From Pseudomonas sp. PDM18 (GTDB taxonomy: Bacteria; Pseudomonadota; Gammaproteobacteria; Pseudomonadales; Pseudomonadaceae), in NCBI RefSeq assembly GCF_014852585.1, contig NZ_JACVBX010000016.1:62001-126000 (forward strand): a stretch of DNA of 64,000 nucleotides. The letters are read 5' to 3'. Positions 9,817 to 20,018 of this stretch are shown here, one piece after another. The translations under genes were made by a program, and so were the position numbers. The notes under the pieces were generated by a model. The model was not told the origin of the DNA. It did no database searches and was given only the letters and a program-made list of their open reading frames with translations. Position 1 is the first letter of the stretch, and every line of letters starts with the position of its first letter.

Positions 9817-11346
9817 TCAGGTGGTCAGAGTACGCAGCAGGTTCTTGTAGTCCTCGCGGATATCCGCGTCGGATTCCTTGAGTTGAGCGATCTTACGACA
9901 GGCGTGCAGCACCGTGGTGTGATCCCGACCGCCGAAGGCCACGCCGATCTCCGGCAGGCTGTGGTTGGTCAGTTCCTTGGAGAGTGCCATGGCCACCTGA
10001 CGTGGACGCGCGACCGAGCGCGAACGGCGCTTGGACAGCAGGTCAGCAATCTTGATCTTGTAGTACTCGGCGACGGTGCGCTGGATATTGTCGATGCTGA
10101 CCAGCTTGTCCTGCAGGGCCAGCAGGTCCTTCAGCGACTCGCGGATCAACTCGATAGTGATCGGCCGGCCCATGAAGTGGGAGTGGGCGATCACGCGCTT
10201 GAGCGCACCTTCCAGCTCACGCACGTTGGAGCGGATGCGCTGGGCGATGAAGAATGCGGCGTCGTGCGGCAGCTCGACCTTGGCCTGCTCGGCCTTCTTC
10301 ATCAGGATCGCCACGCGGGTTTCCAGCTCCGGCGGCTCGACGGCCACCGTCAGGCCCCAGCCAAAGCGGGACTTCAGACGCTCTTCCAGGCCTTCAATCT
10401 CCTTCGGGTAGCGGTCGCTGGTCAGGATGACTTGCTGGCCGCCTTCAAGAAGGGCGTTGAAGGTGTGGAAGAACTCTTCCTGGGAACGCTCCTTGCGGGC
10501 GAAGAACTGGATATCGTCGATCAGCAGCGCGTCCACTGAACGGTAGAAGCGCTTGAACTCGTTGATGGCATTCAGCTGCAGAGCTTTCACCATATCCGCG
10601 ACGAAACGTTCCGAATGCAGGTACACGACCTTCGCATTGGGGTTCTTCTTCAGCAGGTGGTTACCCACAGCGTGCATCAGGTGGGTCTTACCCAGGCCGA
10701 CGCCACCATAAAGGAAGAGCGGGTTGTAGCCGTGCTTGAGGTTGTCCGCGACCTGCCAGGCGGCCGCGCGGGCCAGCTGGTTGGATTTACCTTCGACGAA
10801 GTTCTCGAAGGTAAAGGTGCGGTTTAGGTAGCTGGTGTGCTTGAGAGCACCTTCTACCTGCACGTTGCGCTCGGTACGCACAGCCGCGACCGGCATTGCA
10901 GCGGCCATCGGATCGATGCCCGGGCTGGACTCGTCGAGATCGACGATGGTCTGCACCGGCGCAGCCGAAATAGGCTGCGGCTCGGGCATGGAGAGAGCCA
11001 CCGGTGCAGGTGCAACCACTGGCGCAGGCGCGGCAGCAACGGGAGCCGGCTGAACATTTACCTGCGGCGTCGGAACCAGGGCTGGACGCGGAGTACGGCT
11101 ACGGCGGCTACCAATCAGCAGCGAAATCGCCGGAATCTGACTATTGCCACGCTCGCTCAGCAATTCGAGCAAGCGCCCCATGTACTTCTCGTTGACCCAG
11201 TCGAGTACGAAGCGGTTGGGTGCGTAGACGCGCAGCTCCTCACCCTCGGCCTCGACCTGCAAAGGTCGGATCCAGGTGTTGAATTGCTGGGACGGCAGCT
11301 CGTCGCGCAGAAGCTCCACGCACTGCTGCCAAAGTTCCACGGACAC
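9817..11346 (-). CDS. dnaA: Chromosomal replication initiator DnaA
   Basis: AAA+ initiator (509 aa) that binds DnaA boxes and melts the origin. Domain I is residues ~1-80 ([21 protein letters not shown]), a Pro/Ala-rich linker follows to ~150, then the AAA+ core with Walker [10 protein letters not shown] and Walker [11 protein letters not shown]. The C-terminal domain IV carries the DnaA signature ([20 protein letters not shown] then [16 protein letters not shown]). Start is GTG at 11346 (MSVELWQQ), matching the family. Its own promoter region overlaps a DnaA box, so autoregulation is likely. Reads leftward away from oriC. Confidence 0.98.
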
Positions 11347-11387: not shown

Positions 11388-11416
11388 ATTGTATCCCCGC
11401 CCGACCAACTTATCCA
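11388..11416 (-). promoter_or_regulatory. Predicted dnaA promoter overlapping a DnaA box
   Basis: On the minus strand TACAAT (-10, 11393-11388) lies 17 bases after TGGATA (weak -35, 11416-11411), which is part of the perfect DnaA box at 11410-11418. DnaA bound there would cover the promoter, consistent with autorepression. Confidence 0.55.
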
Positions 11417-11777
11417 CAGTTAAGCGCGCGGGGATGCAAGTAAAATCAACGTGTTAATGATTTTACCGGCGGTCGGCTAATAACGCCGTGAACCTTGTGG
11501 ATAACAGCTTGATGGGGCAGGGGAAGACTCTGGTGATCGTTCTGTGGAAAAAACCTCTGTGGAAAAATCCGCGTTCCATACCCAGCTTTCCAACCGGCTC
11601 CACACAAGTGGCCCACGACTTCCCGACAGGGTTATCATTTCCGCTAGGCTGCTTATTCAATGGCCTCTGTGGACTTATGCACAGGCATAGGCCTGTATAA
11701 ACATAATCATCGCTTCAATCTTTAAAAAAGAGATTTCCCTTCTTTCTATAGATTTTGTATCCGGGTCTGGTTGGAAA

Positions 11778-12666: not shown

Positions 12667-14415
12667 ATGGACATCAAACGTTCAATCCTATTCGTCGCCC
12701 TGGCAATCGTGTCCTACGCGCTGGTTCTCCAGTGGAACAAGGACTACGGCCAGCCCGAACTGCCGGCGCAGACCGCGACCTTCAATCAGACTGAAGGCCT
12801 GCCGGACACTTCCGTGCCTGCCGGCAATGCGGCCAATGCCGACGTACCCACCACGCAGAACGCCCAGGCCAGCCTGCCCAATGAGCAGAAGCCGGCTGCA
12901 ACCAGCGAACAGCTGATCCGCGTGAAGACCGATGTCCTGGACCTGACCATCGACCCGCGCGGCGGCGACGTGATCAAGCTCGGCCTGACCCAGTACCCGC
13001 TGCGCCAGGATCGCCCGGACGTACCGTTCCCGCTCTTCGAGCGTGACAACCAGCGCACCTACCTGGCCCAGAGCGGCCTGACCGGCGCCAACGGCCCGGA
13101 TGCCGCTGCCAGCGGTCGCCCGCTCTACGCCTCGGCCAAACCCGTCTACGAACTGGCCGAAGGCCAGGACCAGATGGTGGTCGACCTGACTTATGCACAG
13201 GATGGCGTCAGCTACATCAAGCGCTTCACCTTCCACCGCGGCCTGAAAAACGACTGCACCGAGAAGGAAAAGGCACAGAAGAAGCTCGAGTGCATCAACC
13301 CCAATGCCTATCAGGTTGGCGTGAGCTACCTGATCGACAACCAGAGCGACAAACCGTGGAACGCTTCGCTGTTCGCCCAGCTCAAGCGTGACGCCAGCGT
13401 CGATCCGTCCTCCACCACCGCTACCGGCGTATCGACCTACCTCGGCGCTGCGGTCTGGACCCCTGAAAAGCCCTACGTGAAAGTGTCCATGAAGGACATG
13501 GACAAAGAGCAGTTCAAGGAAACCGTCCAGGGTGGCTGGGTAGCTTGGCTGCAGCACTACTTCGTCACCGCCTGGGTTCCCGCCAAGGGCGAAACCCACA
13601 GCGTGATGACCCGCAAGGACGCCCAAGGCAACTACATCGTCGGCTACACCGGTCCCAACCTGACCGTTGCGCCGGGTGCCAAGGGCGAAACCAGCATGAC
13701 CCTGTATGCCGGCCCGAAACTGCAGGCGTACCTGAAGGAACTGTCCCCGGGTCTGGAACTGACCGTCGACTACGGCCCGCTGTGGTTCATTGCCCAGCCG
13801 ATCTTCTGGCTGCTGCAACATATCCACAACCTGGTGGGTAACTGGGGCTGGTCGATCATCTTCCTGACCATCGTCATCAAACTGGCATTCTTCCCGCTGT
13901 CCGCCGCCAGCTACCGCTCCATGGCCCGCATGCGCGCCGTGTCGCCGAAACTGGCAGCCCTGAAGGAACAGCATGGTGATGATCGCCAGAAGATGTCCCA
14001 GGCGATGATGGAGCTGTACAAGAAGGAGAAGATCAATCCCCTGGGTGGCTGCCTGCCGATCCTGGTGCAGATGCCGGTCTTCCTCTCGTTGTACTGGGTA
14101 CTGCTGGAAAGTGTCGAGATGCGCCAAGCCCCTTGGCTGGGCTGGATTGTCGACCTGTCGGTGAAGGATCCGTTCTTCATCCTGCCGATCATCATGGGCG
14201 CCACCATGCTGGTTCAGCAGATGCTCAACCCGACTCCGCCGGACCCCATGCAGGCCAAGGTGATGAAGCTGATGCCGATCATCTTCACCTTCTTCTTCCT
14301 GTGGTTCCCGGCCGGTCTGGTCCTGTACTGGGTTGTGAATAACTGCCTGTCCATCGCACAGCAGTGGTACATTACCCGTCGGATCGAAGCGGCGGCGAAG
14401 AAGGCTTCTGCCTGA
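12667..14415 (+). CDS. yidC: Membrane protein insertase YidC
   Basis: Inner-membrane insertase (582 aa, Oxa1/Alb3 family) that inserts and folds membrane proteins alone or with SecYEG; ATP synthase subunit c is a classical client. There is an N-terminal membrane segment (residues ~5-22), a large periplasmic beta domain (~60-350), then five C-terminal membrane segments. The cytoplasmic coiled hairpin SMARMRAVSPKLAALKEQHG and FFPLSAASYR, with the family Arg in the groove, are visible. A terminator-like hairpin follows. Confidence 0.97.
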   Translation: MDIKRSILFVALAIVSYALVLQWNKDYGQPELPAQTATFNQTEGLPDTSVPAGNAANADVPTTQNAQASLPNEQKPAATSEQLIRVKTDVLDLTIDPRGGDVIKLGLTQYPLRQDRPDVPFPLFERDNQRTYLAQSGLTGANGPDAAASGRPLYASAKPVYELAEGQDQMVVDLTYAQDGVSYIKRFTFHRGLKNDCTEKEKAQKKLECINPNAYQVGVSYLIDNQSDKPWNASLFAQLKRDASVDPSSTTATGVSTYLGAAVWTPEKPYVKVSMKDMDKEQFKETVQGGWVAWLQHYFVTAWVPAKGETHSVMTRKDAQGNYIVGYTGPNLTVAPGAKGETSMTLYAGPKLQAYLKELSPGLELTVDYGPLWFIAQPIFWLLQHIHNLVGNWGWSIIFLTIVIKLAFFPLSAASYRSMARMRAVSPKLAALKEQHGDDRQKMSQAMMELYKKEKINPLGGCLPILVQMPVFLSLYWVLLESVEMRQAPWLGWIVDLSVKDPFFILPIIMGATMLVQQMLNPTPPDPMQAKVMKLMPIIFTFFFLWFPAGLVLYWVVNNCLSIAQQWYITRRIEAAAKKASA

Positions 14416-14442
14416 TATCTCAGCCCGATACCGATCGACAAG

Positions 14443-14465
14443 ACGCCCCCTCGTGGGGCGTTTTG
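14443..14465 (+). terminator. Terminator after yidC
   Basis: ACGCCCC pairs with GGGGCGT across a short loop and is followed by TTTT. Confidence 0.7.
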
Positions 14466-14522
14466 CTATGTGGATAACATTGCCTTGCCGCGAGCCACGG
14501 CAACCACCGCGAGACCGTCGAC

Positions 14523-15890
14523 ATGAATGCAGCCCGTGAAACTATCGCCGCAGTCGCCACCGCCCAGGGCCGTGGCGGCGTGGGCATCGTCCGCGTCTCC
14601 GGTCCTCGTGCGCGCGCCATGGCCATAACCTTGAGCGGCCGCGAACCCCAACCGCGCTATGCCCACTACGGGCCGTTCCACGCCGATGACGGCGAAGTCA
14701 TCGATGAAGGCCTCCTACTCTACTTCTCCGGCCCGAACTCCTTCACCGGCGAAGATGTGCTTGAGCTGCAGGGCCATGGCGGCCCCGTGGTGATGGACAT
14801 GCTGTTGCAGCGCTGCCTCGAACTGGGCGCACGCCAGGCCCGCCCAGGCGAGTTCAGCGAGCGCGCATTCCTAAACGACAAAATGGACCTGGCCCAGGCT
14901 GAAGCCATTGCCGACCTTATCGAGGCCAGCTCAGCCCAGGCCGCTCGAAACGCAGTCCGCTCGCTTCAGGGCGAGTTCTCGCGTCGTGTACATGGCCTGA
15001 CTGACCAGTTGATCAGGCTGCGCATGTACGTCGAGGCTGCCATCGACTTCCCGGAAGAAGAAATCGACTTCCTCGCCGATGGCCATGTCCTTTCACAGCT
15101 CGACGCGGTGCGCGCAGAACTCGCTTCCGTACTGCGCGAAGCCGGCCAGGGTGCACTGCTGCGCGACGGTATGACCGTGGTGATCGCCGGGCGCCCCAAC
15201 GCCGGCAAATCCAGCCTGCTGAATGCCCTGGCGGGGCGTGAAGCGGCCATCGTCACCGATATCGCCGGCACCACCCGCGACGTGCTGCGCGAACATATCC
15301 ACATCGACGGCATGCCGCTGCACATCATCGACACCGCCGGACTGCGCAGCACCGATGACCATGTGGAAAAGATTGGCGTCGAACGCGCGCTGAAGGCCAT
15401 CAACGAGGCGGATCGAGTCCTGTTGGTGGTGGACTCGACCGCCGCGGAAGCCAGCGATCCCTTCGCGCTGTGGCCGGAATTCCTCGACAGCCGCCCGGAC
15501 CCGGCGCATGTGACCCTGATTCGCAACAAAGCGGATTTATCCACAGAGAACATCGGGCTCGAAGAAAGTGCCGACGGCCACGTCACCGTCACCCTGTCCG
15601 CACGTTCCGGCAATGGTCTGGACCTGCTGCGCGAGCACCTCAAGGCCTGCATGGGCTTCGAGCAGACAGCCGAGAGCAGCTTCAGCGCCCGCCGTCGCCA
15701 TTTGGAGGCCCTGCGATTGGCCGGAGACAGCCTCGAGCACGGCCGCGCACAGCTCACCCTGAGCGGTGCAGGCGAGCTGCTGGCCGAAGACCTGCGTCAG
15801 GCCCAGCAGGCCCTGGGCGAGATCACCGGTGCCTTCACGCCGGATGACCTGCTGGGACGCATCTTCTCCAGCTTCTGCATCGGCAAGTAA
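14523..15890 (+). CDS. mnmE: tRNA uridine-5-carboxymethylaminomethyl(34) synthesis GTPase
   Basis: GTPase (455 aa) that with MnmG makes the (c)mnm5U34 wobble modification. The N-terminal folate-binding domain (~1-120) is followed by a helical domain with an inserted G domain: G1 [10 protein letters not shown]2 region [10 protein letters not shown]3 DTAGLR, G4 NKAD. It ends with the conserved FCIGK box carrying the catalytic Cys. A perfect DnaA box (15537-15545) lies inside the coding region. In most pseudomonads mnmG follows closely; here a foreign-looking gene intervenes. Confidence 0.97.
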
Positions 15891-15988
15891 GGTAGTAACG
15901 TAAGAAGCAGCTTACACGCGAGACATCGCCGAACAACGATTGCAAAAGAGAATCTAAGTGCCGCCTACAGATCCCACGAGGGAATGCC

Positions 15989-17554
15989 ATGCGCCACACA
16001 TCCTCCACTCTTTTCCACATCACCCATTGGAAAGCCGGCTCCCAATGGATTTTGAAGATCCTTGAAGCGATAGCTCCTGAGCGAATAATTCGACCTCGAG
16101 TCGGTGAAGGCCAACTGCTTCTGGACCCTATCGTTGACGGCGCCATTTACCCGACGGCATATCTAACGCGGGAACAATACGACTCCATCGATCGCCCCGC
16201 GGGCTCCAGGCACTTCGTGGTCCTTCGGGATTTGCGCGACACGCTGATATCAGGCTATTTCAGCGCGCGCTACAGCCATGCGTTGAGTTCCACAGGGCTG
16301 GCCGATCTTCGGCACCAGCTCGAGCAATTGAGCCTCGATGATGGCCTGCTCTATTTGGCAGAGACATGGCTCAGAGGCCCCGCGCTCATACAAGCGTCCT
16401 GGCTTCAAGAACCCACAGGCATCTTCAGATACGAAGATATCCTCACCCACGATCTGGACCTGATGCACGAGGCCCTCAATACGGTTGGAGGCCTCGACAT
16501 ATCCACAGATCGACTCAAGGTCGCAGTTGAAGCGAACCGCTTCGATGTGCTGACGGGAGGGCGCCAGGCGGGTCTGGAAAATACCATGGCCCACGAAAGG
16601 AAAGGGATAGCCGGAGATTGGCAAAATCACTTCAGTGAGAAGGTGAAACAGCGAGTGGAGGAGTTGTATGGCCCTTTGCTTCGTCGCTATGAACGGAGTA
16701 CGCAATTATCCGCTAACACCTACAGTCTCCCTCAAAAGCCAAGTGCTGACGAAGTCCTGGCCAGCTACTCCCAGACCATCGCCGTACACCCTTCACTGCC
16801 CAGCTACGCCCACTGGCTTGCTTGGGAGCTTGCGGCCTTCAAACAGATATCCCTGAAGGGAAACGTGCTGGACCTAGGCTGCAGCGATCCGAAGTTCCTC
16901 AACCTAGTTCTACCTTACGGCAGCACTGCAGACGGAATGTGTACCAACCCGCACCAGGCTGAACAGGCTCGACTCTACGGTCGTTACAACAACGTTCACG
17001 CCGATGGATTTTCCTCTCTGCGACAAAAGGGAGAGTTCGACCATGTGTTCTCTCGAGGATCCCTGGTGCATTTCCCGGGACTGGAGAACAACCTGCAAGC
17101 TGTTCTGGGCGAGCTAAAGCCAGGCGGCACTTTCGCCTGCAGTGTGGTTACCAACCGTTATGAGGAATGGGAGACCCTCCCGTATTTGCTGGAGATATCC
17201 GGCTATGCAGATATCGGCGAGCAAGCGCGTCAGAAGCATATGAATTTCCACGGAATTCAGTACGCGCTCCCCATAGAGCAATGGCAGAACTGCTTCATGG
17301 AAGCGGGATTCGAGGTGATAGCCACCTACCCCGTAGTACCACGGGTAAATGCTCAAGCCAATCTCATCTTCGATGCCTTGTGGCACGCGATATCCAAAGA
17401 GGGACGGCCTCTAGGCGAGTTCATGGCTGCATACGTTTCTGCCAGACCCCGATTCCTGCAGTTATTGTCGAGTTCGATCGACGCCCTGATGGAGTTGGAA
17501 AGCAACTGGGAAGACACAGCGGGAGCCGTCTTCGAGCTGCGGAAACCTCAATAG
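15989..17554 (+). CDS. Predicted bifunctional sulfotransferase-SAM methyltransferase
   Basis: A 521-residue two-domain protein. Residues ~1-240 resemble PAPS-dependent sulfotransferases: a 5'-phosphosulfate loop at THWKAGSQWI, a 3'-phosphate region at FVVLRDLRDTLISGYFS, and RKGIAGDWQNHFSE, close to the cytosolic sulfotransferase RKGxxGDWKNHFT box. Residues ~270-521 form a class I methyltransferase: motif I VLDLGCSDPKF, then DHVFSRGSLVHFPGLENNL and LGELKPGGTF. ATG at 15989 has GAGGGA upstream. Codon use and base composition are visibly less GC-rich than mnmE and mnmG on either side, suggesting transfer. Substrate unknown: a glycan, lipid or small-molecule acceptor is possible. Domain calls are by motif, not by search; no PAPS synthesis gene is nearby. 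Confidence 0.72.
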   Translation: MRHTSSTLFHITHWKAGSQWILKILEAIAPERIIRPRVGEGQLLLDPIVDGAIYPTAYLTREQYDSIDRPAGSRHFVVLRDLRDTLISGYFSARYSHALSSTGLADLRHQLEQLSLDDGLLYLAETWLRGPALIQASWLQEPTGIFRYEDILTHDLDLMHEALNTVGGLDISTDRLKVAVEANRFDVLTGGRQAGLENTMAHERKGIAGDWQNHFSEKVKQRVEELYGPLLRRYERSTQLSANTYSLPQKPSADEVLASYSQTIAVHPSLPSYAHWLAWELAAFKQISLKGNVLDLGCSDPKFLNLVLPYGSTADGMCTNPHQAEQARLYGRYNNVHADGFSSLRQKGEFDHVFSRGSLVHFPGLENNLQAVLGELKPGGTFACSVVTNRYEEWETLPYLLEISGYADIGEQARQKHMNFHGIQYALPIEQWQNCFMEAGFEVIATYPVVPRVNAQANLIFDALWHAISKEGRPLGEFMAAYVSARPRFLQLLSSSIDALMELESNWEDTAGAVFELRKPQ

Positions 17555-18122
17555 CAGCGTTACCATCCGGATACAACACGTCAGGGATACTTATCCACAG
17601 CCTGGTACCATCCACCCCCAAAAACGTTCTCCCTGCCCTCCGCAAACGTTTCTGAGTTTACTCGCAGCGATGGTGACAGGCTGCAACCCCCCAAATTTCA
17701 TATAGATTCTGGCTCGCGGCAGGTAATTCACACCCCTCCCGAAGACCTGTGGACAACCAACGTATAGATAAGTGAACAGGCTCTGCAGCAACCAGTGGAT
17801 AAATCCACCTGTTGATAACACTTCACTTAATCCACAAGCTAGCCACCGACGATCCCCTGCAACCGTACAGCATCGGCACAGGGTTGTTAGGCGCTGAAAG
17901 CAAGGCTGTGTCTGGCCTGTAATAGGTTATCCACAGAAAACGGCTTCACTATACATAAACACAAGCTCTAAAAAGATTTAAAAAGATTCCTCTCTTTTAT
18001 TTTCTACTAGAGGCCAACGGCACAAGTTGGCTATTTTTTGTTCAGACGCCTTCAATCGAAAGCCCTAAGCCCCTATACTGTCCGGCTCTCTTCTTTCTCC
18101 TTGATCAACAGGCACGAGGTGC
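17555..18122. other. Second origin-like region upstream of mnmG
   Basis: 568 bases without a gene. Exact DnaA boxes lie at 17591-17599 and 17927-17935. One-mismatch forms lie at 17748-17756 (TGTGGACAA), 17794-17802 (AGTGGATAA), 17810-17818 (TGTTGATAA) and 17828-17836 (TAATCCACA). Next comes an AT-rich tract at ~17949-18010 holding two AAAAGATT copies ten bases apart (17971 and 17981). The layout, box cluster then AT-rich tract then a fork-directed gene, mirrors the dnaA-rpmH origin. I recall that a second functional origin near gidA has been reported in P. aeruginosa; activity here is inferred. Confidence 0.7.
18051..18079 (+). promoter_or_regulatory. Possible mnmG promoter
   Basis: TATACT at 18074-18079 lies 17 bases after TTCAAT (18051-18056) and 44 bases before the mnmG start. 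Transcription from here would run away from the AT-rich tract. Confidence 0.5.

Positions 18123-20017
<1,895 letters not shown>

Positions 20018-20018
<1 letters not shown>

Follow-up and report, generated by a model that had tools for sequence, protein, structure and literature searches.

In the 64,000-nt stretch of the Pseudomonas sp. PDM18 genome analysed here (the window), mnmE and mnmG are separated by a single gene whose predicted product joins a sulfotransferase-like half to a methyltransferase-like half, raising the question of what such a protein would modify and how its gene came to stand at this site. The gene (15989..17554, + strand) is an intact open reading frame of 521 aa with an ATG start, is flanked by mnmE on its 5' side and mnmG on its 3' side with no other gene in the gap, and occurs only once in its genome, which spans 6.43 Mb in 65 contigs.

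The two halves of the fusion protein

The two-domain architecture first proposed from the sequence holds up, with Pfam Sulfotransfer_1 and Methyltransf_23 both scoring above their cut-offs, structure models in agreement, and all four motifs quoted in that original prediction located in the 521-aa frame. Pfam, an 11-protein alignment and Foldseek place the PAPS-type sulfotransferase (ST) half at residues 1-233 (15989..16687, + strand), with the Pfam match itself at residues 77-233 (E 4.2e-7, 30.1 bits, cut-off 22). In the alignment (A1; 11 ST-family proteins from several phyla, the window protein included), 36 columns are invariant, 34 of them in the ST half; G440 and W465 went uncounted, since they stem from ends of unfused STs that were aligned to the methyltransferase (MTase) half. 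Invariant in 11/11 and aligned to SULT enzymes are K15, R80, S88, R204, K205 and G206, which presumably have the PAPS-site roles of their SULT counterparts. THWKAGSQWI with K15 (16022..16051, + strand; invariant in 11/11) aligns with the SULT KAGTTW loop and is taken to be the 5'-phosphosulfate loop; R80 to S88 (16226..16252, + strand) would, by SULT spacing, form the 3'-phosphate motif; and the RKG motif, R204-G206 (16598..16606, + strand), aligns with SULT RKG.

Profile and structure comparisons point the same half towards cytosolic sulfotransferases, which the profile of the 11 ST-family proteins matched among solved structures (best E 3.5e-14), while Foldseek placed SULT7A1 with PAP first (E 2.2e-7), the best PDB rows being SULT structures with PAP. 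SULT7A1 and SULT2B1 (PDB) share the fold and the PAPS motifs K, R...S and RKG with the ST half, but identity to SULTs is only 14-19% among the matches listed, and the FHITHWKAGSQW signature sets the ST half apart from them. A possible further difference concerns the SULT catalytic base, the histidine of the KTH motif: the profile alignment has no histidine at the aligned place, in a stretch where the alignment is uncertain, and the other invariant histidines in A1 are H10, H13, H97 and H202. The model is mostly confident over this half (block pLDDT 72-95 to residue 230), except at residues 191-210 (pLDDT 59-62), where the RKG motif sits. Foldseek TM-scores were modest, the top rows of the SULT-row and RebM-row searches reaching 0.33 and 0.54 when query-normalised and 0.58 and 0.60 when target-normalised. 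Because the PAPS-site residues are invariant and the profile and structure matches are SULT-like, predicted sulfuryl transfer by the fusion protein is well supported.

The other half contains a class I methyltransferase-fold domain at residues 284-445 (16838..17323, + strand; Pfam Methyltransf_23, E 4.6e-12, 46.4 bits, cut-off 27). As the full-length predicted structure was poor over residues 241-350 (block pLDDT 31-70), this half was modelled apart, using an alignment to four further MTase domains taken from the loci, giving a class I fold (pLDDT 75.9, pTM 0.77) for which Foldseek returned RebM first and AtmM among the top rows. The sole other protein found with the same architecture, from Burkholderia cepacia LK29 (L002), is 42% identical over 519 aa (53% in the ST half, 34% in the MTase half), and the two can be compared at the SAM site. 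Motif I of the window protein, VLDLGCSDPKF (16865..16897, + strand; alignment A2), is degenerate, with S and P in place of its second and third glycines; set against the expected E/DxGxGxG, the window protein reads DLGCSDP and the Burkholderia protein DVGCADG. In A2, which is a rough alignment, the position closing strand 2, where an acidic residue is expected, holds C in the window fusion and A in the Burkholderia fusion, and D or E is retained there in the four comparison domains (free-standing in L012 and L005; the C-terminal ends of the cluster glycosyltransferase-methyltransferase, GT-MTase, in L002 and L073). Judged by motif I and the strand-2 acid together, the window domain does not have a canonical SAM site. 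Since the site is degenerate in both fusion proteins, methyl transfer by the fused domain looks doubtful, so that of the claim that the protein adds both groups the sulfuryl part is supported, by invariant PAPS-site residues, and the methyl part is not.

Probable acquisition at the 3' end of mnmE

We detected mnmE (14523..15890, + strand in the window) in 25/25 genomes of the genus and, using mnmG (18123..20018, + strand) as the anchor, measured an mnmE-mnmG gap of 404-558 nt in 18 of the 24 resolvable species (542-546 nt in 13), in keeping with the earlier statement that the site is usually near-empty; G007 was excluded from the count because of a contig edge. The larger gaps (6/24) were 895, 1143 and 2232 nt (the last in the window), about 3.2 kb, about 3.6 kb, and more than 7.6 kb in G013, a lower bound with mnmG outside the fetched stretch. 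A tyrosine integrase and a type I methylase occupy the G013 gap, and a RhuM-family gene that of G001. With 6/24 gaps enlarged and their contents differing where examined, we read the mnmE 3' end as a site of repeated insertion within the genus; elsewhere it is described as an integrase target (SGI1 type; PMC8409611). The five other species with an enlarged gap are L038/G013, L039/G003, L040/G001, L041/G012 and L031/G011, and the mnmE tail reads GGGAAGTGA in G013, G003 and G001 and GGCAAGTAA or GGCAAGTGA in most empty-site genomes.

Compared with the empty-site intergenic sequence of relatives, the window carries an unmatched segment (15891..17722) in place of the first 150-170 nt or so downstream of mnmE, where relatives have a GC-rich inverted repeat (read by eye) close behind the gene, and homology to closer relatives restarts at 17722-17748. 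The region upstream of mnmG (17746..18122), within which lies a terminator-like site (18012-18032, + strand), is common to relatives: of the 20 whose sequence could be followed as far as mnmG, 16 match almost all of it at 68-87% identity and four match it partially. An SGI1-like island was considered and rejected: no integrase-like ORF was seen among the insert's other ORFs of at least 100 aa, no exact direct repeat of at least 8 nt was shared by the searched flanks (an 8-nt match in inverted orientation was seen, at 15949 and 17703), and the number of att-like matches within the gap was at chance level (2 found, 1.5 expected). A promoter of the fusion gene's own was likewise rejected, a search of 14400-18200 yielding one consensus match where 1.4 were expected, and that one inside the fusion gene; transcription may instead pass from mnmE into it.

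The proposed position beside a replication origin survives only loosely, with the largest strict DnaA-box cluster (five boxes, 11410-11683) lying upstream of dnaA, 4.3 kb from the fusion gene, and two boxes standing before mnmG. These two strict boxes, at 17591 and 17927 (17591-17935 in the window), fall between the fusion gene and mnmG; two boxes are also present in the gap in 13/13 relatives with 542-546 nt, and 3-5 in six others.

The lower GC content that had been noted was confirmed, the fusion gene having G+C 0.551 and GC3 0.626 against a GC3 of 0.734-0.891 in the core genes of the window (n=14). Among 25 genomes of the genus, the full fusion protein was found only in the window genome, one other genome giving a weak MTase-only match (E 7.7e-5), and the window genome was again the single one to carry it in the family (1/398, E<=1e-8), the phylum (1/398, E<=1e-15) and the class (1/369). 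Five other genomes of the class gave partial ST-side matches (E 3.5e-15 to 1.2e-7), which are not part of A1; four of these fall in ORFs of only 277-317 aa, which leave no space for a complete MTase domain, and the fifth, in L099 (449 aa; the match contains a stop), was read in part only and may be a fusion. A non-exhaustive contig scan by short conserved peptides returned 10 loci, from which L010 and L011 (partial, E 1e-9 and 5e-4) were left out, giving the eight ST-family loci L002-L009 used below. Carriage by a phage or plasmid was rejected, no relative appearing in an IMG/VR scan (which reaches close relatives only) or among phages or plasmids. The absence of a counterpart from the other genus and family genomes searched speaks for acquisition, as originally proposed, and not for vertical descent of the same gene at this site throughout the relatives. 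We consider that it probably arrived at the mnmE 3' end as a single-gene insertion.

A collinear O-polysaccharide cluster on another contig

In the Burkholderia genome, the fusion gene lies inside an ABC-transporter O-polysaccharide cluster encoding Wzm, Wzt (with a Wzt_C domain), glycosyltransferases (GTs), gmd and GDP-fucose synthase, and is placed between GT2 and gmd, with Wzt 1.1 kb upstream of it. Two Wzt_C loci occur in the window genome, on contigs C64 (L073) and C6 (L072), the former collinear with the Burkholderia cluster over eight consecutive genes in the same order at 52-71% identity: GT-MTase (53% for the portion that L002 covers; 55% over 643 aa in L093, the adjoining stretch), epimerase (52%), GT (60%), Wzm (60%), Wzt (62% over 473 aa), GT2 (52%), gmd (71%) and GDP-fucose synthase (59%). 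Two further C64 GTs match L093 at 50% and 56%. At the junction that holds the fusion gene in Burkholderia, the C64 GT2 ends at 11317 and the gmd frame begins on the very next base, 11318, which leaves no place for an ST gene. In the window genome the fusion gene lies instead on contig C7, unlinked from the cluster.

This collinear cluster without the gene at its GT2/gmd junction is our main argument for reading the fusion gene as displaced from its pathway. At a probability of roughly 55%, we propose that it belongs to an O-polysaccharide pathway served by an ABC transporter, has become displaced from the other genes of that pathway, and sulfates a fucose-containing polysaccharide. The small modification pathway originally envisaged at the locus gives way to a single gene there, the likely pathway being the O-polysaccharide cluster on the other contig, and the approach taken is one of placing a stray pathway gene by locating the collinear cluster that misses it.

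Fucose in the polysaccharide is suggested by gmd and GDP-L-fucose synthase in the C64 cluster, both exceeding NCBIfam cut-offs, and a supply of PAPS by an APS kinase gene (E 2.7e-66) near it, about 16 kb downstream of Wzt and beyond rml genes. The eight C64 cluster genes have G+C 0.548-0.594 and GC3 0.660-0.777, so that the fusion gene is closer in composition to them than to the core, nearest to GT2 (G+C 0.548, GC3 0.660). Across the family, the fusion gene occurs in 1/398 genomes and the L073-type Wzt C-terminus (E<=1e-25) in 2/396, and the chance that the one fusion genome would fall among the two Wzt-type genomes, if the two were independent, is about 0.5%. In the genus Burkholderia, each occurs in 1/65 genomes, the same one, a co-occurrence that is not independent because the two genes are physically linked there. 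The second family genome of this kind, G269, has a collinear cluster 68-95% identical per gene (Wzt C-terminus 79%), and its assembly (130 contigs) gave no fusion gene even at E<=10. The gene therefore appears not to be indispensable for the cluster, unless it was lost in the G269 assembly or has been replaced.

Evaluating the Wzt C-terminal domain across the eight ST-family loci, we found Wzt or Wzt_C nearby or fused in three and about 17 kb off in L006, and no Wzt in the locus stretches examined for the other four (L003, L005, L008, L009). In a Bryobacteraceae MAG (L004:5374-6711), Wzt_C is fused to an ST-family protein (E 2.8e-15) in an ORF with no ABC ATPase domain, and in a Chloroflexi MAG (L007) two tandem STs follow Wzm and Wzt. 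The L004 domain matches those of L002, L073 and G269 at E 2e-21, 3e-19 and 2e-12, and the L007 domain at 3e-17, 5e-14 and 6e-14. Among 43 control Wzt_C loci from the window's genus (all genus matches except the C64 one), the best match was 9e-8 for L004 and 0.001 for L007, with 36/43 and 38/43 giving nothing at E<=10, and a smaller control of 30 better-scoring loci had the same outcome. Queried with L073 and L002, the control set gave 8e-7 and 1e-5 at best, and L007 gave 2e-14 and 1e-17. Host relatedness does not explain the likeness, because L004 and L007 come from other phyla (Acidobacteriota, to which Bryobacteraceae belong, and Chloroflexota). By these comparisons, the C64 Wzt carries a C-terminal domain of a class that, in two other phyla, accompanies this ST family. 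In the systems that PMC11231755 describes, chains are exported only once terminated, their terminal moiety being recognised by the C-terminal module of Wzt; a sulfated end would, by analogy, be the likely ligand of this Wzt_C class.

Predicted role and competing explanations

As a displaced member of the O-polysaccharide pathway, the enzyme would take PAPS and sulfate lipid-linked polysaccharide on the cytoplasmic side ahead of Wzm/Wzt export, most likely at a sugar near the non-reducing end, and the Wzt C-terminal domain would read the sulfated end. The MTase-fold domain would O-methylate that same terminal sugar or, with its SAM site degenerate, may just position the glycan. A sulfate acting as an export-licensing cap is plausible, though unproven. 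In its full form, this proposal would have a chain-terminating, export-licensing sulfate, a Wzt_C class of its own that co-evolved with FHITHWKAGSQW sulfotransferases across Pseudomonadota, Acidobacteriota and Chloroflexota, a fused MTase methylating the same terminal sugar, and a terminator unlinked in the window genome; this we advance tentatively and would not, on balance, expect to hold in every part. The terminator-type setting (Wzm/Wzt, with a Wzt that has a C-terminal domain) is linked to the fusion gene in Burkholderia and unlinked in the window genome. The weightiest objections to a cap are G269 and a protein with no evident coiled-coil ruler: the terminators characterised in PMC11231755 carry a coiled-coil molecular ruler, and none was seen in the secondary structure of the model, whose C-terminal part is of low confidence. 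Also counting against the displaced-enzyme reading are the four ST-family loci with no Wzt in their stretches, the SULT catalytic histidine without an aligned counterpart, the weaker model around RKG, and the separate contigs of gene and cluster.

Both points would fit an optional side-chain decoration, in which sulfate, and perhaps methyl, goes onto fucose or some other residue within the chain and the enzyme has no part in termination or export, as G269 has the same cluster and Wzt without the fusion gene and the model elements show no coiled-coil ruler. Nod factors offer a chemical likeness, NoeI being a fucose 2-O-methyltransferase. Sulfate and methyl meet there on one fucose, NoeE sulfating C3 of 2-O-methylfucose (PMC5080398), and the C64 cluster encodes GDP-fucose synthesis; the Nod-factor system differs in that separate proteins act on a lipo-chitooligomer, and the two are likened by described chemistry only. 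We nevertheless hold side-chain decoration to be unlikely, since the Wzt_C-ST fusion of L004 and the shared Wzt_C class point to end-reading by the transporter.

Rather improbable is a different acceptor, be it the glycan of the genome's other Wzm/Wzt cluster (L072, on C6), a lipid or a small metabolite. It would suit the lack of linkage between the fusion gene and the C64 cluster, and L072 also has a Wzt followed by a sulfotransferase, so that more than one sulfated glycan is possible in this genome. RebM acts on the sugar of a small molecule, and the MTase model resembles RebM and AtmM, sugar-of-small-molecule enzymes. Against this, L072 has an ST of its own, its Wzt C-terminus (L065) was unmatched to the ST-linked class with four queries, and the Burkholderia copy of the fusion gene resides in a C64-type cluster. 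That the gene is a degenerate, non-functional passenger at an insertion hotspot has very little probability, for although its SAM site is degenerate and gaps of at least 895 nt occur at the site in 6/24 resolvable genus genomes, it keeps an intact 521-codon frame, 34 ST-half columns are invariant over 11 proteins of several phyla, and identity to the Burkholderia protein is 53% in the ST half and 34% in the MTase half.

Returning to the displaced O-polysaccharide enzyme, one comparator is WbdD, in which the MTase domain comes first. WbdD of E. coli O9a is a kinase-methyltransferase O-antigen terminator (PMC3482155) and resembles the fusion protein in having two transferase domains, one of them an MTase, in one polypeptide within an ABC-transporter O-polysaccharide pathway. 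In the fusion protein, a sulfotransferase replaces the kinase, the MTase is C-terminal and no coiled-coil is seen; its SAM site is also degenerate and its gene unlinked, and its activity is a prediction. We see it as a variant on two-domain O-polysaccharide tailoring or terminator enzymes, its membership of the terminator class being unproven. Another comparator is ORF19 of the Aeromonas salmonicida wbsalmo cluster, a sulfotransferase-domain gene next after Wzt in an ABC-dependent O-antigen cluster, whose reported O-antigen structure is without a sulfate-type residue (PMC4483657). At 216 aa against 521 for the fusion protein, ORF19 has no room for an MTase fusion, and the two are likened by description only.

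Terminator chemistries named in the consulted parts of PMC3482155 and PMC11231755 are methylphosphate and Kdo. The open literature searched yielded neither a sulfotransferase-methyltransferase fusion nor a sulfate terminator; an earlier printed prediction of the latter is possible, the obvious prior art being a 2019 survey in Glycobiology (Mann, Kimber and Whitfield) to which PMC11231755 refers. If true, a sulfate cap with its own Wzt domain class would add a terminator chemistry, and might explain what is done by Wzt-neighbouring sulfotransferases with no assigned role, such as A. salmonicida ORF19.

The window genome holds other sulfotransferase-like genes. Downstream of the C64 cluster lies a 1410-aa ORF (L079:2533-6765) with RgpF-type and HAD domains and with ST-like and coiled-coil stretches, both under the Pfam cut-off, followed directly by the APS kinase gene (L079:6791-7396). 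Going by its sequence features, this ORF is itself a candidate for a sulfate terminator, one that brings a ruler of its own. It would suit the ruler role better than the fusion protein does, and the two could act in series. On C6, within L072:8456-11541, a Sulfotransfer_3 gene (E 8.5e-30), of a different sulfotransferase family, stands immediately 3' of Wzt. A stretch similar to the ST-coiled-coil one of the 1410-aa ORF (35% over about 420 aa) occurs in G002 (L062), beside a Wzt_C gene.
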